A DNA stretch of 64,000 nucleotides from the NCBI RefSeq assembly GCF_900143005.1, contig NZ_FRCS01000002.1:1-64000 (forward strand). Reading direction: 5' to 3'. Position 1 is the stretch's first letter, and each line of letters begins with the position of its first letter. This DNA is from Cryptosporangium aurantiacum. Its GTDB lineage: Bacteria; Actinomycetota; Actinomycetes; Mycobacteriales; Cryptosporangiaceae. The notes below the pieces were generated by a model, which saw only the letters and a program-made list of their open reading frames with translations, did no database searches and was not told the DNA's origin. This document shows positions 1,947-40,346 of the stretch, in pieces. The position numbers were made by a program, and so were the translations under genes.

Positions 1947-1969
1947 CGCCGAACCGTACCCTTCGATCC

Positions 1970-18992: not shown

Positions 18993-19014
18993 CCGCTCAT
19001 CGTACTTGCGCCCA

Positions 19015-19049
19015 AAAAGCTTTCTCGATAGCTTTGTGAAAAGCTTTCT
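19015..19049. promoter_or_regulatory. Probable MarR operator: three AGCTTT boxes
   Basis: Between the divergent MarR and amidohydrolase genes, AGCTTT occurs at 19018, 19030 and 19042, exactly 12 bases apart. The outer two lie inside the identical 11-mer AAAAGCTTTCT, and AAAGCTTT is itself a palindrome. The array covers the likely promoters of both genes. MarR dimers bind palindromes of this size, so two dimers could bind side by side. Confidence 0.55.
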
Positions 19050-19061
19050 AGGGAGGCATCT

Positions 19062-23289: not shown

Positions 23290-23297
23290 TGCTGCTC

Positions 23298-26335: not shown

Positions 26336-26360
26336 GTCGCTGGCTCCTCACGCCCCGCTC

Positions 26361-26396
26361 GTTGCGCATCATGCAATAAATCGCACGGAGTGCAAC
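26361..26396. promoter_or_regulatory. Long inverted repeat upstream of the betaine importer
   Basis: GTTGCGC (26361-26367) and GTGCAAC (26390-26396) form an imperfect inverted repeat around an AT-rich centre containing TGCAATAAATCGCA. It lies just upstream of the ATPase start and probably overlaps the operon promoter. It is the best candidate operator here. The regulator is not encoded next to it. Confidence 0.4.
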
Positions 26397-26445
26397 ACAG
26401 GTTCTTGCGCGGCAGTAGCGAGTGTCAAGGCCTACTCGATAACCG

Positions 26446-27567
26446 TTACGGCTCGCCGAGGTACTTCAGCGCCACCATCCGGATGAATTGGTGGACGCCG
26501 TCCTCGTCGGGTGCCAGCGGGCCGGGCTGGTACCGCGCCGCTGCGATTCCCCGCTGGACCGACTCGCAGGCAGCCCAGTCCTGGCGGTTCGTGAGGTCCC
26601 AGAAATCGACGGCGTACGCGGGATCAAAGCCCGGACGAGATGCGACCTCGGCGGGGAACAGCCAGGCGCACTCCACGCGCGTCCGGCCGGGCGCCAGCGG
26701 CGTCAGCCGGTGCGTCATCACGTAGTCGGGATGCAGGCTGATCAGCAGGTTCGGGAACATCGCCGCGTACATCACGGTGCGCAGCCGGTGCTCGTCGAGC
26801 CCGGGGATCGGGCTGCCGCCGCTGCGCCCGTCCAGCGACATCGTGGCCGCGCCGTCGCGGAGGTCCATCCAGCCGCCGACCCAGTCGCCGGGCAGGTCCA
26901 GGTTCTCGCCGCTCTCGGGCGGGCTGACCTGGCACAGCTCGGGATGGATCAGCGCGCAGTGATAACACTCCTGATAGTTCTCGACGATCGTCTTCCAGTT
27001 CGCCGCGACGACGTACTCGTGGCTGGTGACCGTGGTCAGCTCGGCAGGCGAGTAGGGGGCGACGGTGTCCTCGAGCGCGCCGACGTGCTCGGCGAACGGC
27101 GGCGGGTCGGCGTCCAGGGCGACGAACACCCAGCCGTGCCACTCCGCGCTCGGCAGCTCGATCAGCCCGAAGCCGGACTTGTCGAGGTCGCGGAATCCGG
27201 GTGCGGCCCGGAGCGCACCGTCCACGTCGTACGTCCACGCGTGGTACGGGCAGGTGAGCACCCGTTTCACCGCCGAACCACCGCACGGCAGCAGTTCGTG
27301 GCCGCGATGACGGCAGGCGTTGACGAACGCGCGTAACCGTCCGTCCCGCGCCCTCGTGAGCAGCACACCCTCGGTCGGGCCGACCGCGACCGCGCGGTGC
27401 GCACCGGGTTCGGCCAGGTCCTCGGCGCGGCCGGCGCACGTCCAGCCGCCGAAGAAGTGCCGCTGTTCCCAGGCCAGCACGTCGTCGTCCAGATAGGCCG
27501 CGCGGGGCAGCATCCGGGCCTGCCCCAGCTCGGCCAGGCTCGCCGCGAGATGTTCTTGATTGAACAT
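26446..27567 (-). CDS. Rieske non-haem iron oxygenase, quaternary-ammonium type
   Basis: 373 residues. Rieske centre ligands Cys85-x-His87 in NACRHRGHELLP and Cys106-xx-His109 in TCPYHAWTY. The catalytic iron region is VENYQECYHCALIHPEL, the ECYHC form typical of GbcA, CntA and stachydrine demethylase rather than of ring dioxygenases. By family these enzymes demethylate or cleave quaternary ammonium compounds. The gene follows the PotC-like permease by 18 bases and is the last gene of that operon; no reductase partner is adjacent. Codon 78 is TTA. A ring-hydroxylating role is less likely. Confidence 0.85.
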   Translation of the reverse strand: MFNQEHLAASLAELGQARMLPRAAYLDDDVLAWEQRHFFGGWTCAGRAEDLAEPGAHRAVAVGPTEGVLLTRARDGRLRAFVNACRHRGHELLPCGGSAVKRVLTCPYHAWTYDVDGALRAAPGFRDLDKSGFGLIELPSAEWHGWVFVALDADPPPFAEHVGALEDTVAPYSPAELTTVTSHEYVVAANWKTIVENYQECYHCALIHPELCQVSPPESGENLDLPGDWVGGWMDLRDGAATMSLDGRSGGSPIPGLDEHRLRTVMYAAMFPNLLISLHPDYVMTHRLTPLAPGRTRVECAWLFPAEVASRPGFDPAYAVDFWDLTNRQDWAACESVQRGIAAARYQPGPLAPDEDGVHQFIRMVALKYLGEP

Positions 27568-27585
27568 GCAGTCAACGGTAGGTGC

Positions 27586-28431
27586 TCAGGTCTCCCCCGT
27601 GAAGGCCCCGATCGTGGGCTGGGATTTCTTCTCCCCCCTGGTGAGACGGCGGTACGCGACGACGCCGACGACCACCGCCACGAGCGACGCGGCCAGCATC
27701 AGCGTCGCCAGCGCGTTCAGCGCCGGGGTCGGTGCCGCCCGCGCGGTGTTGTAGATCTTCACCGCGGTCGGTTCGCTCGACGCGCTGCCCGACAGGTAGC
27801 GCACGATCACGAAGTCGTCGATGACGTCCGCGAACACCAGCACCGCGCTGGCGAACACCGCCGGGGCGAGCAGCGGCAGCAGCACCCGGCGCAGCGCCCC
27901 GAACGACGACGCGCCCAGGTCCTGCGCGGCCTCCTCGTACTGTTTGCCGATCGTCGCCAGCCGAGCTCTGACGATGATCACCGGGTAGGACACCTGGAAC
28001 GTCACCAGCCCGGCCACCTGCGCCGACGTCCCGAGCGTCAGCGGCGTCGCGACCTGCGTGACGAGGAAGAGCAGCGCGACCGCGAGCAGCGTCTCGGGCA
28101 GCACGAACGAGAGCAGCATCAGGAAGCTCGCGCCGGCGGGCAGCCGTCCCCGCCACCGGTCGACGCCGAGCGCGAACGCGACGCCGAGCGGAACCGTGAT
28201 CAGCGTCGTCAGCAGGCCCAGCCACAGCGTGTGCGTCAGCGCGGTGTGCAGCGAGTCGTCGTGCCACACCGAGCGGGTCGGATCGCCGTAGTACCAGCGC
28301 GTCGAGAAGCCCTGCCAGTTCGTCCGCGACCGGCCGGCGTTGAACGAGAACAACACCGCGATCGCCACCGGCAGGAGCGACCAGACCAGGTAGACCGCGG
28401 TGACCGTGCCCAGCACGTACGGCCGCCTCAC
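27586..28431 (-). CDS. PotC-like ABC permease
   Basis: 281 residues, about six membrane helices. The EAA-type loop is YEEAAQDLGASSFGALRRVLLP, characteristic of the second permease of polyamine-type importers. ATGA overlap with the PotB-like gene upstream and an 18-base gap to the Rieske gene downstream. Together with the other pot-like genes it forms one importer for a cationic small molecule. Confidence 0.9.
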   Translation of the reverse strand: MRRPYVLGTVTAVYLVWSLLPVAIAVLFSFNAGRSRTNWQGFSTRWYYGDPTRSVWHDDSLHTALTHTLWLGLLTTLITVPLGVAFALGVDRWRGRLPAGASFLMLLSFVLPETLLAVALLFLVTQVATPLTLGTSAQVAGLVTFQVSYPVIIVRARLATIGKQYEEAAQDLGASSFGALRRVLLPLLAPAVFASAVLVFADVIDDFVIVRYLSGSASSEPTAVKIYNTARAAPTPALNALATLMLAASLVAVVVGVVAYRRLTRGEKKSQPTIGAFTGET

Positions 28432-29285
28432 GACCGGGTCCCCTCGGTGTCGCGGGTCGACCGCACGTACAGCAGCATCGGGACGATCGAGACCAGCAGT
28501 ACCAGCAGGACGAACGCGGCGGCTTGCCCGGTCTGGCCCGGCGCGAGCACCGCGTTGTTGATCAGGTTGCCGACCATCGAGGTCTGCGGCGACGCGGAGA
28601 GCAGGTCGTTGGTGAAGTAGTCACCGAGCATCGGGAGCGTCGTCAGCAGCCCGCCTGCCAGCAGCGCGGGCCTGCTGAGCGGCAGCGTCACCCGCCAGAA
28701 CGTCTGCACCCGGCCGGCGCCGAGGTCGCGGGCGGCCTCGATCGCGTGCGCCGGTAGCCGGTCGAGACCGACGTAGAGCGGCAGGATCGCGTACGGCACG
28801 TACCCGTAGACGAGGCCGAGCACGACCACGTAGCCGTTGCCCGACAACCACGTGACCTGCGTACCGAGCGCCCGGTTGACCAGCCCGTCGTTCTGCAGCA
28901 GGTTCACCCAGGCCAGCATCCGCATCATGTAGCTGATCCAGAACGGTGCGATCAGCAGCGCGAGCAGGACACCGCGCCACCGGCCGGCCAGCCGCGCGGT
29001 GAAGTACGCCACCGGGTACGCGATCACCAGGCAGAGCGCGCTGGCCAGCAGCGTGTATCCGAACGTCCGCAGGATCGCGGGGCCGTAGAGCGCCAGGTTG
29101 TCGAACACGTACACGAACTGCTCGCCGTTCCAGTAGGCCGGGTTCCACTCCGGGATCGGCGTCCGGAAGATCGGGTCGACGGTGCCGAACGCGATCGCCA
29201 GGACGACGTAGAGCGGAACCAGGAACAGCGCGACCAACCAAATGATCCCGGGAAGCGCCAGCGTCGGCCAGAGCCACCTACGCAC
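28428..29285 (-). CDS. PotB-like ABC permease
   Basis: 285 residues, first permease of the polyamine-type importer. Hydrophobic start LWPTLALPGIIWLVALFLVPLY; EAA-type loop at HAIEAARDLGAGRVQTFWRVTLPLS. Its start overlaps the end of the substrate-binding gene by 8 bases, and its stop overlaps the PotC-like start, so the operon is tightly coupled. Confidence 0.9.
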   Translation of the reverse strand: MRRWLWPTLALPGIIWLVALFLVPLYVVLAIAFGTVDPIFRTPIPEWNPAYWNGEQFVYVFDNLALYGPAILRTFGYTLLASALCLVIAYPVAYFTARLAGRWRGVLLALLIAPFWISYMMRMLAWVNLLQNDGLVNRALGTQVTWLSGNGYVVVLGLVYGYVPYAILPLYVGLDRLPAHAIEAARDLGAGRVQTFWRVTLPLSRPALLAGGLLTTLPMLGDYFTNDLLSASPQTSMVGNLINNAVLAPGQTGQAAAFVLLVLLVSIVPMLLYVRSTRDTEGTRS

Positions 29286-30537
29286 CGGCTTTGAACTCCT
29301 GCCAGACCGTGTGCCACTTCGCGTCCACGTCGGTGGGCAGCTCGAGCAGCCGGTATCCGACGTCGAAGTACTTCGGTAACACGGTCGCGGACGCCAGGTT
29401 CGACGGCAGGTACTCGTCCTGCACCAGCGTCGTCGGCTCGATCGAGGTCTGCGGCGGCTGGTAACCGATGAACGAGAAGTTCGCCAGCGCGGTCGCGTTG
29501 TCGAGCATGTGGTTGACGAACAGGTGCGCGAGCACCGGGTTCTTGCCGCCGCGCAGCACGACCATCAGGTCGTTGTCGACCGAGCCCTTGCCGTCGGACG
29601 GGAACCAGTACCGCAGAATCTCCGGCCCCACGCCGCTGGGCAGGTAGGACACCGCGTTGACGACGTCACCCGACCACATCTGCGCGACGCCGAGCTGCCC
29701 GGCGGGCAGGTCGTTGTACATCGTGATCGTGACCTTGGGTTTGGTCGCCTTCTGAAGTGCGGTGAGCTGCGCGGCGATCTCGTCCAGCACCTTCTGGTCG
29801 CCCGAGTTGATCTCCGAGCTGCCCGAGCGCAGCAGCGCCATCGCCATGCAGGTGTGCCAGTCGTCGAGCACCGCGGTCCGGCCCCGGTACTTGGGGTCCC
29901 AGAGGACGTCGTACGGGTTGGCGCGCGCCGCGACGTCCTCGCGGACCTGATCGGTGCGCCAGCCGATGCCGGTCGTGTAGACCGTGTACGGCACCGTGTA
30001 CTGCCAGCCCTGGTCGTACCAGGGGTCGGTGAACTGCGGCCAGACGTTCTTGATGTTCGGCACGTAGTCATGCGTCAGCGGCCGGATCAGCTTGGCCGTG
30101 ACCAGCCGGGAGAGCTGGTCGTAACTGGGGAAGAAGAGGTCGAACGGCGTCCCACCGGCGCGGATCTTGGTCAGTGCCTCGTCGGTGTCATTGAACGTCG
30201 AGAGCGCGACCTTGACGCCGAACGCGGCGTACTTCTTCTCGAACGACTTGATCGCGGCCGGATCCATGTAGTCGGCGTAGTTGTAGAGCTGCAGCGTCGC
30301 GTTCCGCTCGGGTTCCCGCCCGGCCGGGATCGGCGCGTTGTCCTCGGTGATCGGCCACTTCACCGGGTTGTCCGGGGTCGCGATCGTCAGTTGTGCGGTC
30401 GACGAGTTGCTCTCGTCCCGGGAGCACGCGATCAGGAACTGCGGCGCCGCGACACCGAGCCCGCCGACCAGCGCCGCGCGACGGAGGAACGAGCGGCGGT
30501 CGATCGGGAACCGTCGACGGTGCGGGGTTTCGGGCAT
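29278..30537 (-). CDS. PotD-like substrate-binding lipoprotein with Tat signal
   Basis: 419 residues. The N-terminus has a twin-arginine motif (DRRSFLRRAALVGG) and a lipobox ending in FLIACS, so it is probably exported folded by Tat and lipid-anchored. The mature part is a PotD/PotF-type binding protein (LQLYNYADYMDP; TPFDLFFPSYDQLSRL; VPYTVYTTGIGWRTD; AQMWSGDVVNAV). The ATG at 30537 has GGGAGGA just ahead. First gene of the operon that ends with the Rieske oxygenase; its promoter region holds a GACTGA-N4-TCAGTC palindrome. Codon 387 is TTA. Confidence 0.9.
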   Translation of the reverse strand: MPETPHRRRFPIDRRSFLRRAALVGGLGVAAPQFLIACSRDESNSSTAQLTIATPDNPVKWPITEDNAPIPAGREPERNATLQLYNYADYMDPAAIKSFEKKYAAFGVKVALSTFNDTDEALTKIRAGGTPFDLFFPSYDQLSRLVTAKLIRPLTHDYVPNIKNVWPQFTDPWYDQGWQYTVPYTVYTTGIGWRTDQVREDVAARANPYDVLWDPKYRGRTAVLDDWHTCMAMALLRSGSSEINSGDQKVLDEIAAQLTALQKATKPKVTITMYNDLPAGQLGVAQMWSGDVVNAVSYLPSGVGPEILRYWFPSDGKGSVDNDLMVVLRGGKNPVLAHLFVNHMLDNATALANFSFIGYQPPQTSIEPTTLVQDEYLPSNLASATVLPKYFDVGYRLLELPTDVDAKWHTVWQEFKAGA

Positions 30538-30634
30538 GTGTCCTCCCGCCGTGGCCGGAACATCGGCTCTCACCTGCGAGGACGTGCGGCCGGGAGGCCG
30601 AGGCGACCTTGCCGGTGCTGAGCACCGTGGCATA

Positions 30635-30650
30635 GACTGAACGCTCAGTC
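30635..30650. promoter_or_regulatory. TetR-type operator, site 1
   Basis: GACTGA-ACGC-TCAGTC, perfect 6-base arms around a 4-base spacer, in the gap between the divergent PotD-like and aminotransferase genes. The same palindrome recurs at 33843 next to the TetR gene and at 40301, so it most likely controls both flanking operons. Confidence 0.7.
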
Positions 30651-30675
30651 AATGCTGCCGCTGAAGGATTCAGCA

Positions 30676-32034
30676 ATGAGCGTTGCGGTCACTCCCGTCA
30701 CCACACTTATCGCCGCGCAGGAAAAAGCATTCCTGGTACGACAGCCCCGGAGCCGGGCTCTGCACGAGCGCGCCCGGCAGCGGCTCGCCGGTGGAGCCAC
30801 GTCCAGCTGGCAGATCGCCGCACCGCAGCCGGTCTGGCTCAGCCACGGCGTCGGCGCGCACGTCTACGACGTCGACGGCACCGAGTACGTCGATATGCAC
30901 GGCGGCTACGGCGTCTCGGTCGTCGGGCACGCCCACCCGGCGGTGGCCGCCGCGATCCGCGAGCGCGCCGGCCGCGGCACGCACTTCGCCCAGCCCACCG
31001 AGGACGCGATCGTGGTCGCCGAGGAGCTGGCCCGCCGGTTCGGGCAGCCACTGTGGCGGTTCGCGAACTCCGGTACCGAGGCCACGATGGACGCCGTCCA
31101 CCTGATGCGCGCGGTGACCGGACGCGACCTGATCCTCAAGGTCGAGGGCTGTTACCACGGCCACCACGACTCGGTGCAGGTCTCGGTGTTACCCGACGCC
31201 GACGAGGTGGGCCCGGCCGGCCGTCCGGCGGCGAGCGCGTCGAACAGCGGCATCCCGCAGGCGATCCGCGACCTGGTGATCGTCGTCGGCTTCAACGACC
31301 TGGACGCCGTGCACCGCGCGCTGGTCGAGCACCCGGGCCGGGTCGCCGGGATGATCCTGGAGCCGGTGATGATGAACGCGGGCATCATCCCGCCGCTGCC
31401 CGGTTACCTCGCCGGCCTCGCCGACCTGCTGCACGCCCACGGCGCGCTGCTCGCGTTCGACGAGGTGAAGACCGGACTGACGGTGGCCGCCGGCGGCGCG
31501 ACCGAGCGTTACGGCGTGACCCCGGACCTGATCTGCCTCGCCAAGGCCCTCGGCGGTGGCGTGCCGACCGCGGCGATCGGTGGCAGCGACGCCGTGATGG
31601 GCGCGATCGCCGACGGCCGGTACGACCAGGTGGGGACGTTCAACGGAAACCCGCTGGCGATGGCCGCGGCCCGTGCCACGCTGACCGACGTGCTGACGCC
31701 CGCCGCCTACACCCGGTTGGACGCTCTGAGCGCGCGGCTGGCGGCCGGCATCCGGACGAAGATCGCCGGGCAACCGTGGCAGGTGGTGGTGGTCGGCGCC
31801 AAGGGCTGCCTGACGTTCGCACCCGAGACGCCGCGCGACTACCGCGACTTCCTCCGCGTCGACGGAGCGCTGTCCCACGCGCACTGGCTGGTCCAGCACA
31901 ACAACGGCGTCTTCCTGCCGCCCTGGGGGAAGTCGGAACAGTGGCTGATCTCGGTGCAGCACGACGAGGCGGACGTCGACCGGTTCGTGGACAACGTCGG
32001 TTTGTTCGTGGCCGCGCTGGACGCTGCCCGGTGA
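30676..32034 (+). CDS. Class III PLP-dependent aminotransferase (GSA-aminomutase-like)
   Basis: 452 residues. Fold type I class III enzyme close to glutamate-1-semialdehyde aminomutase and beta-amino-acid aminotransferases. Seen: DGTEYVDMHGGYGVSVVGHAHP, RFANSGTEATMDAVHLMRA (phosphate/PLP contact), EGCYHGHHDS, LLAFDEVKTG (Asp to pyridine nitrogen) and Schiff-base lysine in ICLAKALGGGVP. It is not the haem-pathway HemL, because it sits in a transport/catabolic operon and is coupled (GTGA) to the importer ATPase. It probably moves the amino group of the imported compound. Codon 172 is TTA. Confidence 0.88.
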   Translation: MSVAVTPVTTLIAAQEKAFLVRQPRSRALHERARQRLAGGATSSWQIAAPQPVWLSHGVGAHVYDVDGTEYVDMHGGYGVSVVGHAHPAVAAAIRERAGRGTHFAQPTEDAIVVAEELARRFGQPLWRFANSGTEATMDAVHLMRAVTGRDLILKVEGCYHGHHDSVQVSVLPDADEVGPAGRPAASASNSGIPQAIRDLVIVVGFNDLDAVHRALVEHPGRVAGMILEPVMMNAGIIPPLPGYLAGLADLLHAHGALLAFDEVKTGLTVAAGGATERYGVTPDLICLAKALGGGVPTAAIGGSDAVMGAIADGRYDQVGTFNGNPLAMAAARATLTDVLTPAAYTRLDALSARLAAGIRTKIAGQPWQVVVVGAKGCLTFAPETPRDYRDFLRVDGALSHAHWLVQHNNGVFLPPWGKSEQWLISVQHDEADVDRFVDNVGLFVAALDAAR

Positions 32035-33113
32035 ATAGCGGGCTCCGGCTCACCGAGCTGCACAAGTCGTTCGGCGGGCTGCCCGCGGTGCGCGGCATCA
32101 ACCTCGACATCGACGCCGGGGAGTTCTTCTCGCTGCTCGGCCCGTCCGGCTGCGGCAAGACCACGACGCTGCGGATGATCGCCGGGTTCGAGCAGCCCGA
32201 CCGCGGCGCGATCACCCTGGACGACGTCGACCTGGTGGCGATGCCGCCGCACCGCAGGCCGGTCAACACGGTCTTCCAGAACTACGCGCTGTTCCCGTTC
32301 CTCGACGTCCGGCGCAACGTCGCGTTCGGGCTGAAGTACTTGAAGCTGGGCAAGGCGGAGACCGCTCGGCGGGTCGACGAGGCGCTCGCGCTGGTGCGGA
32401 TGTCGTCGTTCGCGAGCCGCCGCCCGGCGCAGCTGTCCGGTGGGCAACAGCAGCGGGTCGCGCTGGCCAGGGCGCTGGTGCTGCGCCCGTCGGTGCTGCT
32501 GCTGGACGAGCCGCTCGGTGCGCTCGACGCGAAGCTGCGCAAGGAGCTCCAGGGCGAGCTGCGGGCGGTGCAGCGGGAGGTCGGGATCACGTTCGTCTAC
32601 GTCACGCACGACCAGGAGGAAGCGCTGACGATGTCGGACCGGATCGCGGTGCTCGCCGACGGGTTGATCGAGCAGGTCGGCACGCCGGAACAGGTCTACT
32701 CCGAACCGGCCAGCGCGTATGTGGCCGGATTCCTCGGTTCGGCCAACGTCGTCGACGTGGAGGTCGTGGCTGTCGAGGAGACGGCCACCTGCCGGCTCGG
32801 CCCGCACGTGCTGCAGGCCGTGCCGACGGCGGAGGCACCGGAGGGCGCCGGGAAGCTGGTGATCCGGCCGGAGCGGGTGACGCTCGGGCCGACCGGCGCC
32901 GAGCCGCGCCACGGTGCGGCGGCGCTCAACGGGCTGGTCGACCGGGTCGTCTACACCGGACCGACCACGCAGGTGCTGGTGCGGCTCGCCGACGGACAGA
33001 CGCTGCTGGCCGCGGTTCCGAACCAGGCGGGTCCGGCGTCGGTGAAGTACGCGGCGGGTGATCCGGTCACGGCCTTCGTCGCCCCGGACGCCGCGCGGCT
33101 GTTAGCGCCCTAG
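32031..33113 (+). CDS. PotA-like ABC ATP-binding protein
   Basis: 360 residues, GTG start overlapping the aminotransferase stop. Walker A GPSGCGKTTTLRM, Q-loop FQNYALFPF, signature LSGGQQQRVALARAL, Walker B VLLLDEPLGALD, H-loop VTHDQEEALTM. The C-terminal TOBE-like domain runs from about residue 240. It energises the PotB/C-like permeases encoded divergently on the other side of operator site 1. Codon 358, three codons before the stop, is TTA. The stop overlaps the convergent TetR stop. Confidence 0.92.
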   Translation: MNSGLRLTELHKSFGGLPAVRGINLDIDAGEFFSLLGPSGCGKTTTLRMIAGFEQPDRGAITLDDVDLVAMPPHRRPVNTVFQNYALFPFLDVRRNVAFGLKYLKLGKAETARRVDEALALVRMSSFASRRPAQLSGGQQQRVALARALVLRPSVLLLDEPLGALDAKLRKELQGELRAVQREVGITFVYVTHDQEEALTMSDRIAVLADGLIEQVGTPEQVYSEPASAYVAGFLGSANVVDVEVVAVEETATCRLGPHVLQAVPTAEAPEGAGKLVIRPERVTLGPTGAEPRHGAAALNGLVDRVVYTGPTTQVLVRLADGQTLLAAVPNQAGPASVKYAAGDPVTAFVAPDAARLLAP

Positions 33114-33826
33114 CGGCGGCGTTTGGCCGCGTAGCGTCCGCGGCGGGTCGGGGCGGCCCACTCGAAGCCCAGCGCGTCCGACGCGAACCGCATCGCGATC
33201 GCGGTCGCCCGGTCGGAATCCACCTCGGGGTCGGAGAGCGCGACCTGGATCGACAGCCCGTCGAGCAGCGCGGAGAACGTGACCGCGAACTCGAGGACGT
33301 CGAGCTCGGCGAACTCACCGGTGCGCTGACCGTCCCGGACGACCCGGGCGATCGTGTCGCGCCACCGCTGGTCGGACTCCACCCGGTCGCGCGCCACCTC
33401 GGGGTGCCGGAACGCCTGCGCCCACAGGTCGAACCAGAGCCCCCACGCCCCCGGGTCCTCACCGGCGCCCTCCCGGACGCAGGTGAGCCGCACCAGCGTC
33501 TCCAGCCGCGCGGCGGCGGTGCCCAGCTGCTCCAGCACGTCGGCGGTGCGGGAGTAGAACTGGTCCTCGGAGTACCGGAACGCGGCGGTGAGCAGGCCGT
33601 CCTTGGTGCCGAAGTAGTAGATGACCAGCGCGGGGCTCGCGCCGGTGCGCTTCGCGACGTCGGCGATGCGGGTGTCGGAGAAACCCCGTTCGCAGATCAC
33701 CTCGACGGCCGCCTGCAGCATCTGCTCCCGGCGCTGGTCGGGAACCGGCACGTCAGAGCTTTGTTTCGGGCTGGCCATCGGCGCGGGCGACCTCGTCGTC
33801 GGAGAAGCAGGGGCTCTTGTCCGCAT
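33110..33826 (-). CDS. TetR family regulator of the catabolic cluster
   Basis: 238 residues. N-terminal helix-turn-helix: RREQMLQAAVEVICERGFSDTRIADVAKRTGASPALVIYYFGTKDGLL in sequence order, the standard TetR pattern. The rest is an all-helical ligand domain. The ATG at 33826 has AGGTGG seven bases ahead; a GTG four codons earlier is also possible and would nearly touch the operator. Operator site 2 lies between this gene and the divergent FAD oxidoreductase gene, so autoregulation is likely. Ligand presumably the imported compound or its CoA derivative. Confidence 0.9.
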   Translation of the reverse strand: MRTRAPASPTTRSPAPMASPKQSSDVPVPDQRREQMLQAAVEVICERGFSDTRIADVAKRTGASPALVIYYFGTKDGLLTAAFRYSEDQFYSRTADVLEQLGTAAARLETLVRLTCVREGAGEDPGAWGLWFDLWAQAFRHPEVARDRVESDQRWRDTIARVVRDGQRTGEFAELDVLEFAVTFSALLDGLSIQVALSDPEVDSDRATAIAMRFASDALGFEWAAPTRRGRYAAKRRR

Positions 33827-33842
33827 CCTATCAGCCACCTAA

Positions 33843-33856
33843 ACTGAACGTTCAGT
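33843..33856. promoter_or_regulatory. TetR-type operator, site 2
   Basis: ACTGAACGTTCAGT is a perfect 14-base palindrome and continues the consensus seen at 30635 and 40301 (core CTGA-N4-TCAG). It lies between the TetR gene and the divergent oxidoreductase, and overlaps a TTGACT -35-like box reading toward the TetR gene. Confidence 0.75.
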
Positions 33857-33886
33857 CAACACGAACCCGCTGGTCGGAGCCGTGCC

Positions 33887-35530
33887 ATGACAAATCAGTA
33901 TGACGCGATCGTCGTCGGTGGCGGCCACAACGGCCTGGTGGCCGCGGCCTACCTCGCCCGCGCGGGCGCCCGCACGATCGTCCTCGAGGCCCGCCGCACC
34001 ACCGGTGGTGCCGCGACCACCGAGACGCCCTGGCCGGACGCGCCCGACCTCAAGGTCACCCGGCTCTCCTACGTGATGAGCCTGATGCCGCCGACGATCG
34101 TCCGTGACCTGCGGCTGGCGGAGCACGGGTATCACGTCACCCCGATGGGGCCGTACTACCAGGCGTTTCCCGACGGTGGTTCGCTCCTGATCCACGAGGA
34201 CGACCCGAAGCGTACGTACGACGAGTTCGCGAAGTGGTCCCGCCACGACGCGGACGCGATCGGCGACTGGAACGCCTGGATCGGTGGACTGGCCGACGTC
34301 CTCGGGCCGCTGCTGACCACGGTGCCCCCACACCTGGGCGCGAAGCGTCCGCGTGACCTCGCCGAGTTGCTCCGCCTCGCCTGGAACCACCGCGGCCTCA
34401 CCGTCCGCACGGTCGCCGACGTCACCCGGCTGATGGCGATGAGCATCGGTGACCTGCTCGACGACTGGTTCGAGTCCCCGCAGATCAAGGGCGCGCTCGC
34501 GGTCAACGGCGTGATCGGCACCTGGGCCGGGCCGTACGAGCCGGGCACCGCGTACGTGATGGCCCACCACTCGATCGGCGACGTCGGCGACGGGAACCTC
34601 GGGAGCTGGGGGTACCCGCGCGGCGGAATGGGCGCGGTGAGCGACGCGATCCGGCGTTCGGCGGAGTCGTTCGGCGCGGTCGTCCGCACGGAGGCCCGGG
34701 TCTGCCGGTTACTGGTGCGATCAGGCCACGTCCAGGGGGCGGTACTCGCGGACGGCACCGAACTGCGCGCGCCGCTCGTCGTCACCAGCTTGCACCCGAA
34801 GACCGCGTTCCTCGACCATGTCCCGCGCGGTGAGCTGCCCGCCGAGTTCGTCACCGACATCGAGCGGTGGAGGTCCCGCAGCGGCGTCGTGAAGATCAAC
34901 CTCGCGCTGGCCGAGCTGCCGGACTTCACCGCCGATCCGGGCACCGGCATCCACGAGCACCACACCGGGTCGGTGGAGATGGCACCGACGATGGACTTCA
35001 TCGAGCGCGCGTTCCAGGACGCCCGCACCGGACGGCCGGCCGCGCAGCCGTTCAGCGACGGTGTCATCCCCAGCACGCTCGACCCGACGCTGGCGCCGGA
35101 CGGCGTCCACCTCATGTCGCTGTTCACCCAGTGGGTGCCGGCCGATTGGAGCACCACGCCGCACACCGAAGAGCTGGCGGCCTACGCCGACCGGGTCGTC
35201 GACCTCTACGACGCGGTCGCGCCGAACTTCAAGGCGTCGATCCTGCACCGGGACGTCGTCGGGCCGTACCAGATGGAGCGCGAGTACGGGCTGATCGGCG
35301 GCAACATCTTCCACGGCGAGCTGTCGCTGGACCAGCTGTTCCACCTGCGCCCCGCGCCGGGATACGCCGACTACCGCACTCCGATCCGCGGGCTCTACAA
35401 CGCGAGTTCGGCCACCCACGGCGGCGGCGGGGTCTGCGGTATCCCCGGCTGGCAGGCCGCGCGCGCCGCGATCGCCGACCGCCGCGAGGCCGCGCGCCGG
35501 TCCCGGCTCCGCCGGACGTTCCGCCGGTGA
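33887..35530 (+). CDS. FAD-dependent oxidoreductase, phytoene-desaturase fold (PYROXD2-like)
   Basis: 547 residues. Dinucleotide-binding motif VVGGGHNGLVAAAYLARAGARTIVLEAR at the N-terminus, GGAATTE next, and the C-terminal FAD-contact region GLYNASSATHGGGGVCGIPG. Related to PYROXD2 and carotenoid desaturases, which oxidise C-C or C-N bonds using FAD. Here a role in oxidising the imported amine or an intermediate is inferred from context. First gene of an operon with the CoA synthetase (GTGA overlap) and acyl-CoA dehydrogenase. Codon 275 is TTA. Confidence 0.88.
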   Translation: MTNQYDAIVVGGGHNGLVAAAYLARAGARTIVLEARRTTGGAATTETPWPDAPDLKVTRLSYVMSLMPPTIVRDLRLAEHGYHVTPMGPYYQAFPDGGSLLIHEDDPKRTYDEFAKWSRHDADAIGDWNAWIGGLADVLGPLLTTVPPHLGAKRPRDLAELLRLAWNHRGLTVRTVADVTRLMAMSIGDLLDDWFESPQIKGALAVNGVIGTWAGPYEPGTAYVMAHHSIGDVGDGNLGSWGYPRGGMGAVSDAIRRSAESFGAVVRTEARVCRLLVRSGHVQGAVLADGTELRAPLVVTSLHPKTAFLDHVPRGELPAEFVTDIERWRSRSGVVKINLALAELPDFTADPGTGIHEHHTGSVEMAPTMDFIERAFQDARTGRPAAQPFSDGVIPSTLDPTLAPDGVHLMSLFTQWVPADWSTTPHTEELAAYADRVVDLYDAVAPNFKASILHRDVVGPYQMEREYGLIGGNIFHGELSLDQLFHLRPAPGYADYRTPIRGLYNASSATHGGGGVCGIPGWQAARAAIADRREAARRSRLRRTFRR

Positions 35531-37575
35531 CCGACGCGCTGTGGGCGATGCTGCATGCCCGGTCGGTGGCGGTGGTCGGCGCGAGCCCGAACGCGGACAG
35601 CTTCGGCGGACGGATGCTCACCGAGCTGGCCCGCAGCCCCGCTCGCCTCCGCACGTACCTGGTCAACCCCCGGTACGACCGGATCGGCGAGCAGCGCTGC
35701 CACCCGAGCCTGGACGACGTCCCCGGCGCCGTCGACCTGGTGCTGCTGGGCGTGCCGGACCGCGCGCTGGAGTCCCAGGTCGACGCAGTGGTTCGCCGGG
35801 GTGATCGGGGCGCCGTGATCTTCGGGAGCGCATCGCAGCCGGGCCTCCGGGAGCGGATCGTCGCCCGCGCCGCCGACACCGCACTCTGCGGAGCCGGATG
35901 CATGGGGTTCGTCAACGTGCCGTACGGGCTGCGGGCCCTGGGGTACCTGGAGCCCGATCCGCTGCCGGCCGGCCCGGTCGCGCTGGTCACCCACTCCGGC
36001 TCGGCGTTCTCGGCGCTGCTGCGGACCCGGCGCGGACTCGGCTTCACGCTGGCGGTCTCCTCCGGCCAGGAACTCGTCACGACCACGGCCGACTACCTCG
36101 GCGCCGCGCTCGAGATGCCCGGTACCCGGGTAATCGCGCTGCTGCTCGAGACGCTGCGGGACGCCGAGCGATTCCGCTCCGCGCTGGCGATCGCGGCCGT
36201 GCGGGACGTGCCGGTGGTGGCGCTCACCGTCGGCACCTCGTCGGCCGGCCGCGCGATGGTCGCCGCTCACTCCGGAGCGCTCGCCGGCGCCGACGGGGCG
36301 TGGGAGGCGCTGTTCGACGCGTACGGCGTCCACCGCGTCGACGACCTGGACGAGCTCGTCGACACGCTGGAACTGTTCGCGGCCGGACGCCGTGCGGGCC
36401 GCGGTGCGCTGGCGACCGTGCACGACTCCGGCGCCGAGCGCGCGCTCACGGTCGACGTCGCGGCCCGGCTGGGCGTGCCGTTCGCAGCCCTGACGGACGG
36501 CACCCGGCAACGGCTCGAGCCCCTGCTGGATGCCGGGCTGCGCCCGGAGAACCCGTTGGACGTCTGGGGCACCGGCGCCGACACCCGGGGGCTGTTCGGG
36601 GCCTGCCTGCGCGCGCTGCACGACGATCCGGGGGTGGCGGCGGTCGCGCTCGCGGTCGATCTGGTGCCGGAGTTCGACGGCGATGAGTCGTACGTGGACG
36701 CCGCTCTCGACACGGCCGCGGCGACGAGCAAGCCGTTCGCGGTGCTGTCGTCGGTGGCGTCGGCGATCGACCCCCGGGCGGCGTTCAGTCTGCGGGCGGC
36801 GGGCATCCCGGTACTGGAGGGGCTCCCTACCGGGCTGCGGGCGCTGGGTCACCTGCTGGCCGATCGCGACTACCGGGCTCGGCCCCCGATCACCGAGACG
36901 GACGTGGACCACGAGCGGCGCGACCGCTGGGCGGCCCGGTTCCCGCTGCGCCCGGCCGACGCGTTCGCGCTGCTCCGCGACTACGGCATCTCGACGCCGG
37001 ACGTGCGCGCCGCCGACGACCTGGGAACCGTGCTGCGCGCCGCCGCGGAGGTCGGGTGGCCGGTCGTGCTCAAAACCGCCGCGCCGGACGTCGTCCACAA
37101 AACGGATGTGGGTGGGGTACGGCTGGGCCTGCACACGGCCGAGGCCGTCACCTCCGCCTACCTGGACCTCGCGGCCCGGCTCGGGCCGCAGGTGCTGGTC
37201 AGCGGCGCTGCCCCGGACGGTGTGGAGATCGCGCTCGGGCTGGTGCGGGATCCGCAGCTCGGGCCGCTGGTGGTCGTCGGGGCGGGCGGGGTGCTGGTCG
37301 AGCTCCTGCACGACCGGGCGGTCGCGCTGCCCCCGCTCGACCGCGGGCGGGCCCACGCGCTGCTCGACCGGCTCACGATCCGTCCCCTGCTGGACGGCGT
37401 CCGCGGTCGCCCCGCCGCCGACCGGGACGCACTCGCCACGGCGATCGTCCGGCTCGGTCAGCTCGCGCTGGAGCTCGGCGATCACCTCACCGCCCTGGAC
37501 GTCAACCCGATCCTCGCCGGGCCGCACGGCGCGGTCGCGGTCGACGTCCACCTGGAGCGCAGACAGGAGCAGTGA
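35527..37575 (+). CDS. ADP-forming acyl-CoA synthetase (acetate-CoA ligase family)
   Basis: 682 residues, GTG start. N-terminal CoA-binding domain (ARSVAVVGASPNADSFGGRML), then succinyl-CoA-ligase-like domains (VALVTHSGSAFSALL; AAHSGALAGADGAWEALF), then an ATP-grasp domain (about 450-680: ADAFALLRDYGISTPD; GWPVVLKTAAPDVVHKTDVGGVRLGL). It makes an acyl-CoA from a carboxylic acid with ATP, releasing ADP. In this operon it would activate the carbon skeleton left after nitrogen removal for the acyl-CoA dehydrogenase encoded next. Specific acid unknown. Confidence 0.9.
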   Translation: MTDALWAMLHARSVAVVGASPNADSFGGRMLTELARSPARLRTYLVNPRYDRIGEQRCHPSLDDVPGAVDLVLLGVPDRALESQVDAVVRRGDRGAVIFGSASQPGLRERIVARAADTALCGAGCMGFVNVPYGLRALGYLEPDPLPAGPVALVTHSGSAFSALLRTRRGLGFTLAVSSGQELVTTTADYLGAALEMPGTRVIALLLETLRDAERFRSALAIAAVRDVPVVALTVGTSSAGRAMVAAHSGALAGADGAWEALFDAYGVHRVDDLDELVDTLELFAAGRRAGRGALATVHDSGAERALTVDVAARLGVPFAALTDGTRQRLEPLLDAGLRPENPLDVWGTGADTRGLFGACLRALHDDPGVAAVALAVDLVPEFDGDESYVDAALDTAAATSKPFAVLSSVASAIDPRAAFSLRAAGIPVLEGLPTGLRALGHLLADRDYRARPPITETDVDHERRDRWAARFPLRPADAFALLRDYGISTPDVRAADDLGTVLRAAAEVGWPVVLKTAAPDVVHKTDVGGVRLGLHTAEAVTSAYLDLAARLGPQVLVSGAAPDGVEIALGLVRDPQLGPLVVVGAGGVLVELLHDRAVALPPLDRGRAHALLDRLTIRPLLDGVRGRPAADRDALATAIVRLGQLALELGDHLTALDVNPILAGPHGAVAVDVHLERRQEQ

Positions 37576-38723
37576 TGTACGGCCTCTCCCCCACCGACCT
37601 GGAGATCCGCGCCAGGGCTCGCGCGTTCGCCGACGAGCTGATCCCGTACGAGGTCGAAGCCGAACTCGCCGGAGGTCAGCTCGAACCGAAGGTCGCCGAA
37701 TCGCACCACCGCCGGGCGCTGGAACTCGGCCTGTACGCGACGAACATGCCCACCGACCTGGGCGGCGGCGGGTACACGCTGCTCCAGCAGGTGCTCGTGC
37801 AGGAACAGGTCGGCCGGGTGACGAACGGGCTGGGCTGGGTCATGCACACGCCGGCCGCGTGGTTCGCCGAGGTGGCCACGCCGTACCAGCGGGAGCGCTG
37901 GCTGCTGCCGACCGTCCGCGGCGAGATGCAGGAGTGTTACGCGATCACCGAGGAGGGCGCCGGGTCCGACGTGGACGCGATCACCGCGACCGCCCGGCGG
38001 GACGGCGACGCGTATCTGATCGACGGCGTGAAGTGGCACGTCACCTCCTACGACCACGCCGCCTACGCGTTCGTGCAGGCCAAGCTGGAGTCCCGGGAGC
38101 ACGCGCTGTTCGTGGTCGACCTGCCGTCGCCGGGCGTGCGGGTGGTGCGGACGCCGGAGTACACGCACACGCTCACGCATCGGCATCCGATCGTGGCGTT
38201 CGAGGGAGTACGGGTGCCGGTCAGCCACCTGGTCGGGGCCGAGGGGGACGGGATGGCCTTCTCCTACGCCTGGTTCCGGTTCGAGCGGCTGATGGTGGCG
38301 GCCCGCTGCCTCGGTGCCGCGGAACGGCTGATCGACGAGGCGGACGCGTTCGCCGCGACCCGGATCGTCGGCGGCGAACCGCTGCGGGACCGGCAGCTGG
38401 TCGCGGCGATGCTCGCGGACAGCGTGACCGAGCTGTTCGCGGCCAGGGCGATGGTGTACGAGACCGCGCGAGAGATCGACACCGATCTCAAGCTGGCCCA
38501 CGCCCGCTGCTCGATGGTGAAGCTGTTCGCCTCGGAGATGGCGAACCGGGTCGCCGACCGGGCGGTGCAGATCTTCGGCGGACGGGGTTACATGCGGGAG
38601 AACGTGGCCGAGCGGTTGTTCCGGGAGCTGCGGGTGGAGCGGATCTGGGAGGGCGCCTCCGAGGTACAGCGGCTCATCGTCGCCGATCAGCTCGCCAAAC
38701 GCGGGGTCACCGGGCTCGTCTGA
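37575..38723 (+). CDS. Acyl-CoA dehydrogenase
   Basis: 382 residues. Flavoenzyme introducing a 2,3-double bond into an acyl-CoA. FAD/substrate motif CYAITEEGAGSDVDAITATA; C-terminal RAVQIFGGRGYMRENVAERLFRELR; the likely catalytic Glu is in RIWEGASEVQRLI. Start overlaps the synthetase stop by one base (TGATG). It follows directly on the acyl-CoA synthetase, the expected order of a beta-oxidation-like route. Converges with the second FAD oxidoreductase with a 17-base overlap. Confidence 0.92.
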   Translation: MYGLSPTDLEIRARARAFADELIPYEVEAELAGGQLEPKVAESHHRRALELGLYATNMPTDLGGGGYTLLQQVLVQEQVGRVTNGLGWVMHTPAAWFAEVATPYQRERWLLPTVRGEMQECYAITEEGAGSDVDAITATARRDGDAYLIDGVKWHVTSYDHAAYAFVQAKLESREHALFVVDLPSPGVRVVRTPEYTHTLTHRHPIVAFEGVRVPVSHLVGAEGDGMAFSYAWFRFERLMVAARCLGAAERLIDEADAFAATRIVGGEPLRDRQLVAAMLADSVTELFAARAMVYETAREIDTDLKLAHARCSMVKLFASEMANRVADRAVQIFGGRGYMRENVAERLFRELRVERIWEGASEVQRLIVADQLAKRGVTGLV

Positions 38724-40305
38724 GGTCGTCGAGCACGGCGTGCGCGGCGTTGCGGCCGTTCAGCGCGATGACGCTGCCCGCTGGGTGGGTCGCCGCGCCG
38801 CAGAGGTAAACGCCGGGCACCTCGGTCCGCGGGGTCAGCCGGTGCTCCCACATCTGGCTCGGCCGAACCTCACCCTGGAAGATGTGCCCGCCGGTCAGGC
38901 CCACCTTCGCCTCGATGTCGGGCGGCCCCAGCACCTCGTACGCCTCCAGGCAGTCCTCGAAGTCCGGCGCGAACCGCCCGATCAGGTCGATGAACTGCCG
39001 CGCGACCTCGTCGCGCCGGGTGTCCCAGCCGCCGCCGACCAGCGTGTACGGCGCGTACTGCCCGAAGACGCTCAACAGGTGCCGTCCGGGCGGCGCCGGC
39101 GACGGGTCGTGCAGCGTCTGGACGTAGATCTCACCGAAGCCGACCGCGGGGTGCCCGGTCTCGCACGCGGCGAACGCCTCCTGAGCCGCGGCGAGGCCGG
39201 TCGTGACGTCGACGGTGCCGAGCGCCATGAACGTCTCGCCGGGCGCGGCGGTCCAGGACGGCAGCCGCCGCAGCGCCGCGTTGAACTTCACAACCGGGCT
39301 GCGGATGTCCCAGTCCTCCAGCCGCCGCCGGTAGCCGACCGGAACCGCCTCGACCGGCAGGAGGTTCAGCAGCCGCTTGGGGTCGGCGTTGCTGACCACG
39401 GTCGTCGCCCGGATGAACGTCCCGTCCTCCAGCTCGACGCCCTCCCCCGGGCGCACGGCTCCAACCGGCACGCCCGCCGCCAGCACCGCGCCGGCGTCGC
39501 GCGCTGCCTCGGCGATCGCGAAGCTGATCATGCCCATACCGCCCTTGACGTAGCCCCAGATCGGGCCGTGTCCGAGCAGGTCACCCTGGAAGTGCATGAG
39601 CTTCACCGACGCCGTCCCCGGGTCGTTCGGCCCGGCGTACGTGCCGATCACACCCTGGCCGAACAGCGCGTCCTTGAGCCGCTGGTCGGTGACGAACTCG
39701 TCGAGCACGTCGGCGATCGAGGCCTCGAACAGCGCGTCGATCATCAGCCGGTCGTGGCCGAGCAGCTCCTCCAACTCCGCGCGGGACGGGCTGGCGCCGA
39801 TCCAGGTGTCCCGCGGCCCGGTGCGCAGCCGCTTGCGCATGTCGTCGAAGAAGTGCTCGTAGGCCCAGTAGCCGTCGATGTCCTTCGCCGACAGCCTCAA
39901 GGCTTCCAGGCCGGCCTGGGTGCGCGCGTCGTCCATCCACTGCCCGAACGCGGTGCCGTCGTCGAACGGCACCCACAGCTGCGGGTCGGCGACGAAGACC
40001 TCCAGCCCCCGGCGGGCCAGCTCCAGCTCCCGGATCACGACGTCGTCCAGCAGCCCGACGACGTACGCGCAGGGGCTGATCACGAAGCGGTCGTCCGGGA
40101 ACGGCTGTTCCAGCGTCGCGGCCCCGCCGAGCCGCTCGCGTGCCTCCAGGACCAGCACGTCCTGGCCCGCGCGGGCCAGGTAGGCGGCGCAGGTCAGCCC
40201 GTTGTGCCCGCCGCCGACCACGACGACGTCCCAGTGCCGGGCGGCGAGTTCGGCGATCGGCGCCGGTAACCCCACCCGCCCGAGCACGTCGGCGACCGAG
40301 TTCAT
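38707..40305 (-). CDS. FAD-dependent oxidoreductase, phytoene-desaturase fold (second copy)
   Basis: 532 residues, paralogous in fold to the oxidoreductase at 33887 but clearly diverged. FAD motif VVVVGGGHNGLTCAAYLARAGQDVLVLEARERLGG in order; C-terminal YLCGAATHPAGSVIALNGRNAA. The start codon lies inside the left arm of a 32-base perfect palindrome (operator site 3), so the transcript must be leaderless or nearly so, and repressor binding would block it directly. Codon 13 is TTA. Probably catalyses a related oxidation step in the same pathway. Confidence 0.88.
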   Translation of the reverse strand: MNSVADVLGRVGLPAPIAELAARHWDVVVVGGGHNGLTCAAYLARAGQDVLVLEARERLGGAATLEQPFPDDRFVISPCAYVVGLLDDVVIRELELARRGLEVFVADPQLWVPFDDGTAFGQWMDDARTQAGLEALRLSAKDIDGYWAYEHFFDDMRKRLRTGPRDTWIGASPSRAELEELLGHDRLMIDALFEASIADVLDEFVTDQRLKDALFGQGVIGTYAGPNDPGTASVKLMHFQGDLLGHGPIWGYVKGGMGMISFAIAEAARDAGAVLAAGVPVGAVRPGEGVELEDGTFIRATTVVSNADPKRLLNLLPVEAVPVGYRRRLEDWDIRSPVVKFNAALRRLPSWTAAPGETFMALGTVDVTTGLAAAQEAFAACETGHPAVGFGEIYVQTLHDPSPAPPGRHLLSVFGQYAPYTLVGGGWDTRRDEVARQFIDLIGRFAPDFEDCLEAYEVLGPPDIEAKVGLTGGHIFQGEVRPSQMWEHRLTPRTEVPGVYLCGAATHPAGSVIALNGRNAAHAVLDDLRRAR

Positions 40306-40332
40306 GCTGACTGATTATTCAGTCAGCATGAA
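40301..40332. promoter_or_regulatory. TetR-type operator, site 3, covering a start codon
   Basis: Two 14-base perfect arms, TTCATGCTGACTGA and TCAGTCAGCATGAA, flank TTAT. The core GACTGA-N4-TCAGTC matches sites 1 and 2, but the symmetry extends four or more bases further on each side. The left arm contains the reverse-strand ATG of the FAD oxidoreductase gene. Confidence 0.75.
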
Positions 40333-40346
40333 CCCGGTGTCCAGGC

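Follow-up and report, generated by a model that had tools for sequence, protein, structure and literature searches.

A putative TetR-controlled regulon for the uptake and oxidation of an N-methylated or quaternary amino compound in Cryptosporangium aurantiacum and other actinobacteria

Introduction

What joins eleven adjacent genes of Cryptosporangium aurantiacum that belong to such different families as Rieske oxygenases, carotenoid-desaturase-like flavoproteins, polyamine-type transporters, and acyl coenzyme A (acyl-CoA) enzymes, and on which compound might they act? The genes lie in the window analyzed here, a stretch of 64,000 nucleotides (contig NZ_FRCS01000002.1, positions 1 to 64,000; whole genome, 9.58 Mb), and occupy positions 26446 to 40305. 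A preliminary description of this DNA had read them as a self-contained TetR regulon for the uptake and oxidation of a probably N-methylated amino compound; all eleven open reading frames (ORFs) are present, and family searches match the labels given to them there. They encode a Rieske non-heme iron oxygenase, a PotABCD-like importer, a class III aminotransferase (AT3), two flavoproteins (FAD1 and FAD2), an ADP-forming acyl-CoA synthetase (ACS), an acyl-CoA dehydrogenase (ACAD), and a TetR regulator. By orientation, they form five transcription units: potDBC-Rieske, AT3-potA, tetR, FAD1-ACS-ACAD, and FAD2. The regulon is real and conserved, a conclusion about which we have very little doubt: its operator and gene set are conserved together in 82 distinct loci, as expected for a single TetR regulon. 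A literature search at the level of titles and abstract openings found no published account of this cluster.

Operators and promoters

Perfect copies of the palindrome RACTGAN4TCAGTY (GACTGAN4TCAGTC, with AACTGA at site 2) are found at three places in the cluster. All three had been noted before, the second and third with slightly wrong coordinates: they begin at 33842, not 33843, and at 40309, not 40301 (8 bp off). A genome-wide search ties the palindrome to the cluster, in which three of the five genomic copies of the core ACTGAN4TCAGT are located, and the backwards pattern has no match in the genome. The R/Y-flanked pattern was searched in 20 genomes, 7 with the cluster and 13 without it. 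It has four sites in the C. aurantiacum genome, three of them in the cluster, and two to four in each of the six other cluster genomes. Ten of the cluster-free genomes have none and three have one or two (G007, 2; G053, 1; G086, 1), with different inner bases. The backwards control with R/Y flanks gave no match in C. aurantiacum and one to three in five other genomes (G001, G003, G070, G058, and G216). Matches with up to two mismatches number 7 in the window, against 4.1 expected, so only the perfect sites are informative on their own. A fourth, weaker site, overlooked in the preliminary description, lies at the start codon of the Rieske gene; its 16 bases recur unchanged close to the start of this gene in locus L060, and one-mismatch versions of the operator precede the Rieske gene in six other loci (L031, L058, L107, L111, L117, and L122).

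In the intergenic DNA, operators 1 and 2 begin inside -10-like boxes (TTGCCG-18-TAGACT before AT3 and TTGTCC-17-TAAACT before FAD1). The pair TGGACA-18-AATAAT on the minus strand before FAD2 is the sole sigma-70-like match in a scan of positions 26250 to 41000 (one found, 0.4 expected). In the aligned promoters of the family, the operator starts at the G of the TAGACT box. The AT3 promoters read TTGTCG-N17-TAGACTGAACGCTCAGTCAA, with a moderately strong TTGTCG; those of FAD1 are similar, with a spacer of 17 in both; and the ACAD promoters have ATAGACTGAACGCTCAGTCAA in common and no TTGTCG box. In most stretches from Mycobacteriaceae, GATTGAACAGTCAGTC is found between tetR and FAD1. Repressors usually have their operator on the -10 box. 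Because the operators overlap -10-like boxes, TetR is very likely a repressor, judging from operator position.

Elsewhere in the C. aurantiacum genome, tandem palindromes GACTGACGCGTCAGTC and ACTGACGAGTCAGT (contig 3, 263866 to 263915; L004, 1500 to 1549) precede an ORF that by eye looks amidohydrolase-like. They were rejected as targets of the regulon, given their different core and the amidohydrolase-like ORF downstream, and probably belong to another TetR-type regulator; their core resembles the Ruegeria BetI1 box, quoted as ATTGACG-CGTCAAT in PMC12442346.

Conservation of the operator and the gene neighborhood

Related loci were selected by similarity to FAD1 (the best 80 of 118 confirmed loci plus L031 and L033); dropping four duplicate records (L032=L070, L034=L067, L035=L071, and L036=L126) reduced 86 records to 82 distinct loci with 1.42 Mb of DNA, whose flanks reach at most 10 kb from FAD1. 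The core operator has 141 sites in 75 of these loci; 59 palindromes with permuted arms gave a mean of 0.34 and a maximum of 4. With one mismatch allowed, an operator is found in the 400 bp upstream of AT3 in 57/58 cases, of TetR in 79/82, of FAD1 in 79/83, of ACAD in 46/49, and of PotD in 48/58, counts that are not all independent, as divergent gene pairs share one site. The corresponding figures are 5/43 for Rieske, 1/72 for PotA, and zero for ACS (83 genes), PotB (56), and PotC (60); a scrambled pattern scored zero everywhere. Seven stretches with a distant TetR (34 to 41% identity; L037, L038, L042, L044, L045, L046, and L049) hold no operator with up to one mismatch, and because of this the regulator and its operator seem to be inherited together.

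The genes around FAD1 in these relatives are those of the window, at 39 to 80% identity and in several families. The neighborhood thus recurs in other actinobacteria, and the possibility that the genes are unlinked in all relatives clearly fails. Among the best 80 of the 118 loci, the carriers include many Mycolicibacterium and Mycobacterium, Nocardioides, and Trebonia kvetii, as well as metagenome-assembled genomes of Streptosporangiaceae, Acidimicrobiaceae, Frankiaceae, and Nanopelagicales. FAD1 has no homologue (E <= 1e-60) in three genomes of the same genus and one of the same family, and homologues with E <= 1e-150 are found in 22 of 394 genomes of the class, C. aurantiacum included. In the FAD1 tree, the window protein has as its nearest row L031, which comes from another family, and it falls into no small group with good support. 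This placement and the absence of FAD1 from its genus-mates suggest patchy inheritance or transfer.

Some loci show other arrangements. Overlapping operator-like palindromes with one mismatch precede a lone FAD1 homologue (58% identity) in L039 (14920 to 14939) and L040 (9705 to 9724), stretches in which neither TetR nor any other cluster gene was matched. A second type of cluster, found in L044, L045, L046, and L049 (also in L041), combines a FAD1-like gene (52 to 59%) with Rieske genes and TetR and, in some stretches, with an oligopeptide-type solute-binding protein (L046), a sarcosine/N-methyltryptophan-oxidase-like gene (L049), and a prolyl-oligopeptidase (L049) or, by eye, a CocE-like gene. 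This type might act on a methylated substrate in peptide or ester linkage.

Table 1. Features of the cluster and its surroundings (window coordinates)
Feature	Position	Strand	Basis
ProXWV-like betaine/choline ABC transporter, downstream of Rieske gene	22318..26335	-	family search
Rieske non-heme iron oxygenase, group V (quaternary ammonium) type	26446..27567	-	PF00355 + PF00848
Candidate fourth operator GACTGCATGTTCAATC, at Rieske start codon	27558..27573	-	weak, 2 mismatches
PotC-like ABC permease	27586..28431	-	family search
PotB-like ABC permease	28428..29285	-	family search
PotD/PotF-like substrate-binding protein	29278..30537	-	family search; Tat-type signal by eye
AT3-potA promoter-like boxes TTGCCG-18-TAGACT	30609..30638	+	read from intergenic DNA; family logo
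Operator 1 GACTGAACGCTCAGTC, between potD and AT3	30635..30650	.	pattern match
AT3, class III aminotransferase, HemL-like	30676..32034 (alternative start 30652)	+	PF00202
PotA-like ABC ATPase	32031..33113	+	TIGR01187, 375 bits
TetR regulator, BetI-type C-terminal domain	33110..33826 (start may be 33838)	-	PF00440 + PF13977
FAD1-operon promoter-like boxes TTGTCC-17-TAAACT	33817..33845	+	read from intergenic DNA; family logo
Operator 2 AACTGAACGTTCAGTC, between tetR and FAD1	33842..33857	.	pattern match
FAD1, CrtO-like flavoprotein, carotenoid-desaturase/amine-oxidase fold	33887..35530	+	family search, structure model
ACS, ADP-forming acyl-CoA synthetase	35527..37575	+	PF13380 + PF13607 + PF13549
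ACAD, acyl-CoA dehydrogenase	37575..38723	+	family search
FAD2, second CrtO/CrtI-like flavoprotein, where relatives carry DAO/sarcosine-oxidase-like gene	38707..40305	-	family search
Operator 3 GACTGATTATTCAGTC, beside FAD2 start, within an inverted repeat whose arms extend perfectly past the operator	40309..40324	.	pattern match
FAD2 promoter-like boxes TGGACA-18-AATAAT, -10 inside operator 3	40314..40343	-	sigma-70-like scan

The Rieske oxygenase

The Rieske protein has the CxH...CxxH cluster, the His-His-Asp iron site, and the bridging Glu (E200) of group V, and its residues C85/H87/C106/H109, E200, C201/C204, H203/H208, D324/D330, and Y198 are invariant in 27 alignment rows. It also carries a Cys-X-X-Cys motif beside the iron site (ECYHC, C201/C204), which PMC10952381 ascribes to some group V members. 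According to PMC7948474, the residue at CntA position 203 divides group V into group Va, with an aromatic residue (carnitine, choline, and benzalkonium oxygenases are included), and group Vb, in which Asn marks the betaine N-demethylases. By pattern, this residue is Tyr in 62 of 63 homologues, and the 63rd (L044:11506) reads ENYNECYHC when aligned, so that the cluster enzymes show the aromatic residue of group Va. The residue is not decisive, since a Priestia plasmid encodes a Rieske protein with Phe at the same position in a betaine-demethylation-like neighborhood (solA, a large FAD enzyme, a BCCT transporter, and glycine-cleavage genes).

The best NCBIfam match of the Rieske protein is the GbcA equivalog (NF058607), at 178.7 bits, below its cut-off of 670. 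Its structure model has a predicted local distance difference test (pLDDT) score of 93.7, and the 18 best structural matches, which comprise 3n0q, stachydrine demethylase, 3vca (titled quaternary ammonium oxidative demethylation), and CntA, all rank before any aromatic-ring enzyme. Template modeling (TM) scores are 0.86 to 0.87 for Stc2 versus 0.76 to 0.80 for CntA. In the Rieske-domain tree, the cluster enzymes form a clade of their own (26 rows, support 100/99), apart from CntA/YeaW and from Stc2, with weak deep forks. Residues and modeled fold place the enzyme in group V, with oxidation of quaternary ammonium as the predicted activity, and the Tyr, the fold matches, and the separate clade mark it as a group V type of its own. 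N-demethylation is its likely reaction and other reactions are also possible, as the Tyr fits group Va and not group Vb.

FAD2 and the DAO-type flavoenzyme

A flavoenzyme of the DAO family (domain PF01266) is encoded in the stretches of 48 out of 85 loci, or 47 out of 83 once duplicates L032 and L036 are removed. Its gene often separates ACS from ACAD and runs divergently from the latter, and an operator then lies between the divergent pair. The protein scores best with the models of sarcosine oxidase beta and of ThiO, a glycine oxidase, below the cut-offs of both. The C. aurantiacum genome contains no good copy of this gene (best identity, 29%), and FAD2 with its own operator stands in that place. 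Of the 394 class genomes, four, that of C. aurantiacum among them, have a FAD2 orthologue (E <= 1e-140), and each of the four also carries FAD1; none of the 82 related loci has such an orthologue in its stretch. The two enzymes were compared in the nine genomes, out of 22 with FAD1, that have FAD1 at >=63% identity: DAO is present in five (E <= 1e-60), whose FAD2 paralogues are all distant (<=40%), and the other four have FAD2 at 68 to 100% and no DAO. Disregarding kinship, the odds of such a perfect 5:4 split are 1 in 126, which is suggestive only. In G011, a single contig holds FAD2, ACAD, ACS, AT3, and Rieske matches, with a one-mismatch operator between those to ACAD and ACS. A second FAD1 paralogue (54%) adjoins the DAO gene within the cluster of L107 (12066 to 13691).

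Transporter, regulator, and other enzymes

PotA scores 375 bits, above the TIGR01187 subfamily cut-off of 355.6; the other Pot proteins do not reach their equivalog cut-offs (PotB, 143.8/348; PotC, 141.6/326; PotF, 85/636 bits). Equivalents of PotF residues W244, D247, and D278 are kept in all 56 binding proteins, and that of E185 is lost in 45 of the 56; the kept residues are cation-binding in PotF. With the first three kept and E185 mostly lost, the binding protein seems to fit a cationic amine other than plain putrescine. In L100, an ORF that by eye looks like a solute-binding protein (1833 to 3686) separates AT3 from TetR. As no Pot gene was matched in that stretch, the enzymes may be paired there with another importer.

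TetR scores 95.6 bits against BetI (TIGR03384; cut-off, 201.3) and shares with it only the PF13977 domain; a BetI or choline regulon proper was rejected on this score and on gene content. AT3 scores 335.9 bits against HemL, below the cut-off of 527.3, and 303.5 of 525 against a GntE-like family; a role in HemL heme biosynthesis was rejected by score and context, as was carotenoid biosynthesis for FAD1 and FAD2, whose CrtO scores are 244.9 and 165.3 (cut-off, 1000). The FAD1 model (pLDDT, 85.8) matches carotenoid desaturases best; the matches after these are mainly to nicotine oxidoreductase, monoamine oxidases, putrescine oxidase, and cyclohexylamine oxidase, and they include some Rab-GDI chains. 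As the fold matches include both carotenoid desaturases and amine oxidases, either amine or C-C oxidation is possible for the modeled enzyme. ACS and ACAD are ordinary superfamily members: ACS has all three expected domains, CoA-binding PF13380, succinyl-CoA-ligase-like PF13607, and ATP-grasp PF13549, and ACAD scores 171.4 bits against acryloyl-CoA reductase and 144.3 of 540 against crotonobetainyl-CoA dehydrogenase.

Among the neighbors, the ProXWV genes lie 110 bp downstream of the Rieske gene, and no terminator-like site was found between Rieske and ProV. ProXWV could share the Rieske transcript in this genome, as a possible, unproven partner; no perfect operator is nearby, and ProV, ProW, and ProX have no match in the 82 related stretches, as far as their flanks extend. 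On the other side, a phytase-like esterase-domain protein (PF13449; 40347 to 41726) adjoins the cluster and shows no sign of membership.

Related clusters on plasmids and one-carbon proteins

Among plasmid records, six of 26 FAD1 relatives and two of 525 Rieske relatives were opened. Four of the six FAD1-relative plasmids (Fuscovulum, Shinella zoogloeoides, Rhizobium SL42, and Parasedimentitalea) encode TetR, two FAD1-like proteins, an aminotransferase, and Rieske-like proteins, along with an annotated aminomethyltransferase in each; the one aminomethyltransferase tested is a folate-binding PF01571 protein. The ABC transporter is of polyamine type in the first three, and the Parasedimentitalea stretch has a solute-binding gene at its edge. 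The first FAD1-like protein of these plasmids is 38 to 42% identical to FAD1 of the window. On the Shinella sumterensis plasmid, a FAD1-like gene is accompanied by genes for an ADP-forming ACS, GcvT, and an enoyl-CoA hydratase. One-carbon units from the oxidation of N-methyl groups are usually taken up by folate-binding aminomethyltransferases, and for this reason an N-methyl substrate is favored.

The Fuscovulum ytuae plasmid (L147) has an operator with one mismatch, GATTGACAACTCAGTC (8743 to 8758), between TetR and the aminotransferase, which may be due to chance; no such site with one mismatch was found in the other seven plasmid stretches. The cluster on this plasmid, which has two Rieske genes and encodes a PotF-like binding protein, also includes a gene for a protein of the dimethylsulfoniopropionate (DMSP) lyase family (PF16867; 20808 to 21659). 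In the actinobacterial cluster L117, a DMSP-demethylase-like GCV_T folate protein (18164 to 19426) is divergent from the adjoining Rieske gene.

Proposed pathway and alternative explanations

The gene set, the operators and their overlap with -10-like boxes, their conservation, the Rieske type, and the alternation of FAD2 and DAO in nine genomes are established by computation. Together, they lead us to propose, with a probability of roughly 0.6, a TetR-repressed regulon for the uptake and oxidation of an N-methylated or quaternary amino compound; we infer repression, the ligand, the substrate, every reaction, and the order of the steps. In the absence of substrate, the BetI-type TetR would sit on the palindromes overlapping the -10 boxes and shut off AT3-potA, FAD1-ACS-ACAD, potDBC-Rieske, FAD2, and its own gene, until an imported ligand or an intermediate frees it from the operators. 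PotABCD would bring in a cationic N-methylated or quaternary amino compound, whose quaternary or methylated nitrogen the group V Rieske enzyme would attack, either by taking off a methyl group or by hydroxylation at the position adjacent to N. FAD2 (in relatives, the DAO-type oxidase) and FAD1 would then oxidize the leftover secondary or tertiary amine, AT3 would remove or transfer the amino group, ACS would activate the carboxylic skeleton, and ACAD would desaturate it. The earlier reading of the genes as serving uptake and oxidation is thereby supported, and a quaternary or N-methyl substrate, which we consider fairly probable, agrees with the group V residues and fold of the Rieske protein, the sarcosine-oxidase-like partner in relatives, and the aminomethyltransferases in related clusters.

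Several observations weigh against this proposal. The eleven genes include none for a Rieske reductase, an aldehyde dehydrogenase, an enoyl-CoA hydratase, or a thiolase, which leaves the route incomplete on paper. As none of the eleven encodes an electron donor for the Rieske enzyme, which has to be supplied from elsewhere, calling the pathway self-contained was too strong; with hydratase and thiolase absent from the set, its ending in beta-oxidation is no more than a possibility. All ten shared genes are visible in only 32 of the 82 stretches, Rieske in 46 and ACAD in 49, partly because contigs or flanks end. In G216 and G279, FAD2 is apart from the cluster and has no operator nearby, which speaks against strict linkage. 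The Rieske enzyme has Tyr in place of the Asn that characterizes group Vb, and a polyamine-type binding protein could, by its sequence, equally suit a plain di- or polyamine. Identity to the plasmid proteins is low (aminotransferase, 25 to 32%; TetR, 26% or not detected), the stretch viewed on the S. sumterensis plasmid contains no Rieske, TetR, or aminotransferase gene, and the one from the Sphingobium herbicidovorans plasmid has none of the cluster set.

Other explanations can be judged against the same data. One is a route like that of carnitine or gamma-butyrobetaine, in which the Rieske enzyme would cut the C-N bond as CntA does, freeing trimethylamine or dimethylamine, and ACS and ACAD would process the betaine or the remainder as CoA esters. 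The Tyr at the CntA-203 position, assigned to group Va in PMC7948474, and the relation of ACAD to crotonobetainyl-CoA dehydrogenase speak for such a route, although ACAD scores higher against acryloyl-CoA reductase. Yet the Rieske fold is closer to Stc2 than to CntA, its clade is distinct from CntA/YeaW in a tree with weak deep forks, the Priestia enzyme from a betaine-demethylation-like setting is also aromatic at position 203, the set lacks both a reductase like CntB and a semialdehyde dehydrogenase, and the aminotransferase and the sarcosine-oxidase-like partner would be left without need. We regard this route as unlikely. Still less probable is a catabolic regulon for polyamines of the putrescine/spermidine type, with the flavoproteins as amine oxidases and the Rieske enzyme as a side activity. 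The type of the transporter, the cation-binding residues kept in its binding protein, the class III aminotransferase, and the fold matches of FAD1 to putrescine and monoamine oxidases would suit it, but the Rieske protein is of quaternary-ammonium type and present in more than half of the stretches, the E185 equivalent is lost from most binding proteins, and relatives hold the sarcosine-oxidase-type DAO and aminomethyltransferases.

A biosynthetic rather than catabolic cluster, producing some N-containing natural product, appears very improbable: the GntE-like score of AT3 and the CrtO-like match can occur in biosynthesis, but a dedicated importer is under the same operator, ACS is ADP-forming and accompanied by ACAD, none of the eleven genes encodes an assembly-line, ligase, or export function, and the cluster is found in varied taxa. 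Finally, we give next to no weight to the idea that the genes are chance neighbors and the palindrome a chance occurrence or the site of another regulator. Two of the five genomic core sites are indeed outside the cluster, three of the 13 cluster-free genomes hold R/Y-flanked sites, and the two-mismatch count in the window is within chance, but the core sites recur at homologous places in 75 of the 82 loci and are absent before operon-internal genes, and the neighborhood is kept across several families at about 39 to 80% identity. Chance palindromes were rejected by the genome-wide count and by the recurrence in relatives compared with the control palindromes.

Implications

The proposed uptake-and-oxidation regulon would give a coherent function to genes that family models label as phytoene desaturase-like, spermidine/putrescine transporter, or HemL-like in a large number of actinobacteria, many Mycolicibacterium genomes among them. 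The same unit with the same operator is present in many other actinobacteria, and the substrate should therefore be findable, with operator and regulator providing a ready reporter. Should the regulon act on a widespread betaine or N-methyl amino acid, it would represent a step in organic nitrogen and one-carbon turnover that has so far gone unrecorded. The alternation of FAD2 and DAO offers a concrete test of whether a carotenoid-desaturase-like flavoprotein oxidizes N-methyl amines. More tentatively, the cluster might represent a new pathway that acts aerobically on a common, naturally occurring N-methylated amino compound, spread in actinobacteria and reshuffled on alphaproteobacterial plasmids, with one dedicated BetI-like repressor and with CrtO/CrtI-like flavoproteins, otherwise regarded as carotenoid enzymes, acting as amine N-demethylases or oxidases able to replace a sarcosine-oxidase-type enzyme (FAD2 for DAO).

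Comparison with known systems

Each part of the cluster belongs to a known family. The importer resembles PotABCD in its PotA and in a binding protein that aligns with PotF/PotD, and differs in permeases and a binding protein far below the equivalog cut-offs and in the mostly lost E185 equivalent. A TetR with a BetI-type C-terminal domain and a palindromic box at the promoters recall the BetI regulon, from which the cluster differs in both gene set and operator. The four alphaproteobacterial plasmid clusters have in common with it TetR, the FAD1-like pair, the aminotransferase, the ABC transporter, and Rieske-like genes, but carry an annotated aminomethyltransferase and no ACS or ACAD, and the full group V motif, present in the window enzyme, is missing from most of their Rieske-like genes.

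For the Rieske protein, the closest characterized structures are those of Stc2, the stachydrine (proline betaine) demethylase of Sinorhizobium meliloti, also of group V, whose entries 4quq, 4qup, and 4qur rank second to fourth after the uncharacterized 3n0q and with which it aligns over both domains; identity is about 26%, and the cluster enzyme has Tyr for Asn and works with other partners and another transporter. The carnitine monooxygenases CntA/YeaW share with it group V membership, Tyr203, the bridging Glu, and the CxxC motif, but fall outside its clade in the tree with weak deep forks, align well by sequence only in the first part, and have a CntB-like reductase gene that the cluster lacks. 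The GbcA pathway of glycine betaine works with sarcosine and dimethylglycine oxidases. The cluster follows the same logic of a Rieske enzyme and a DAO-type oxidase and adds to it an aminotransferase, ACS, ACAD, and CrtO-like flavoproteins.

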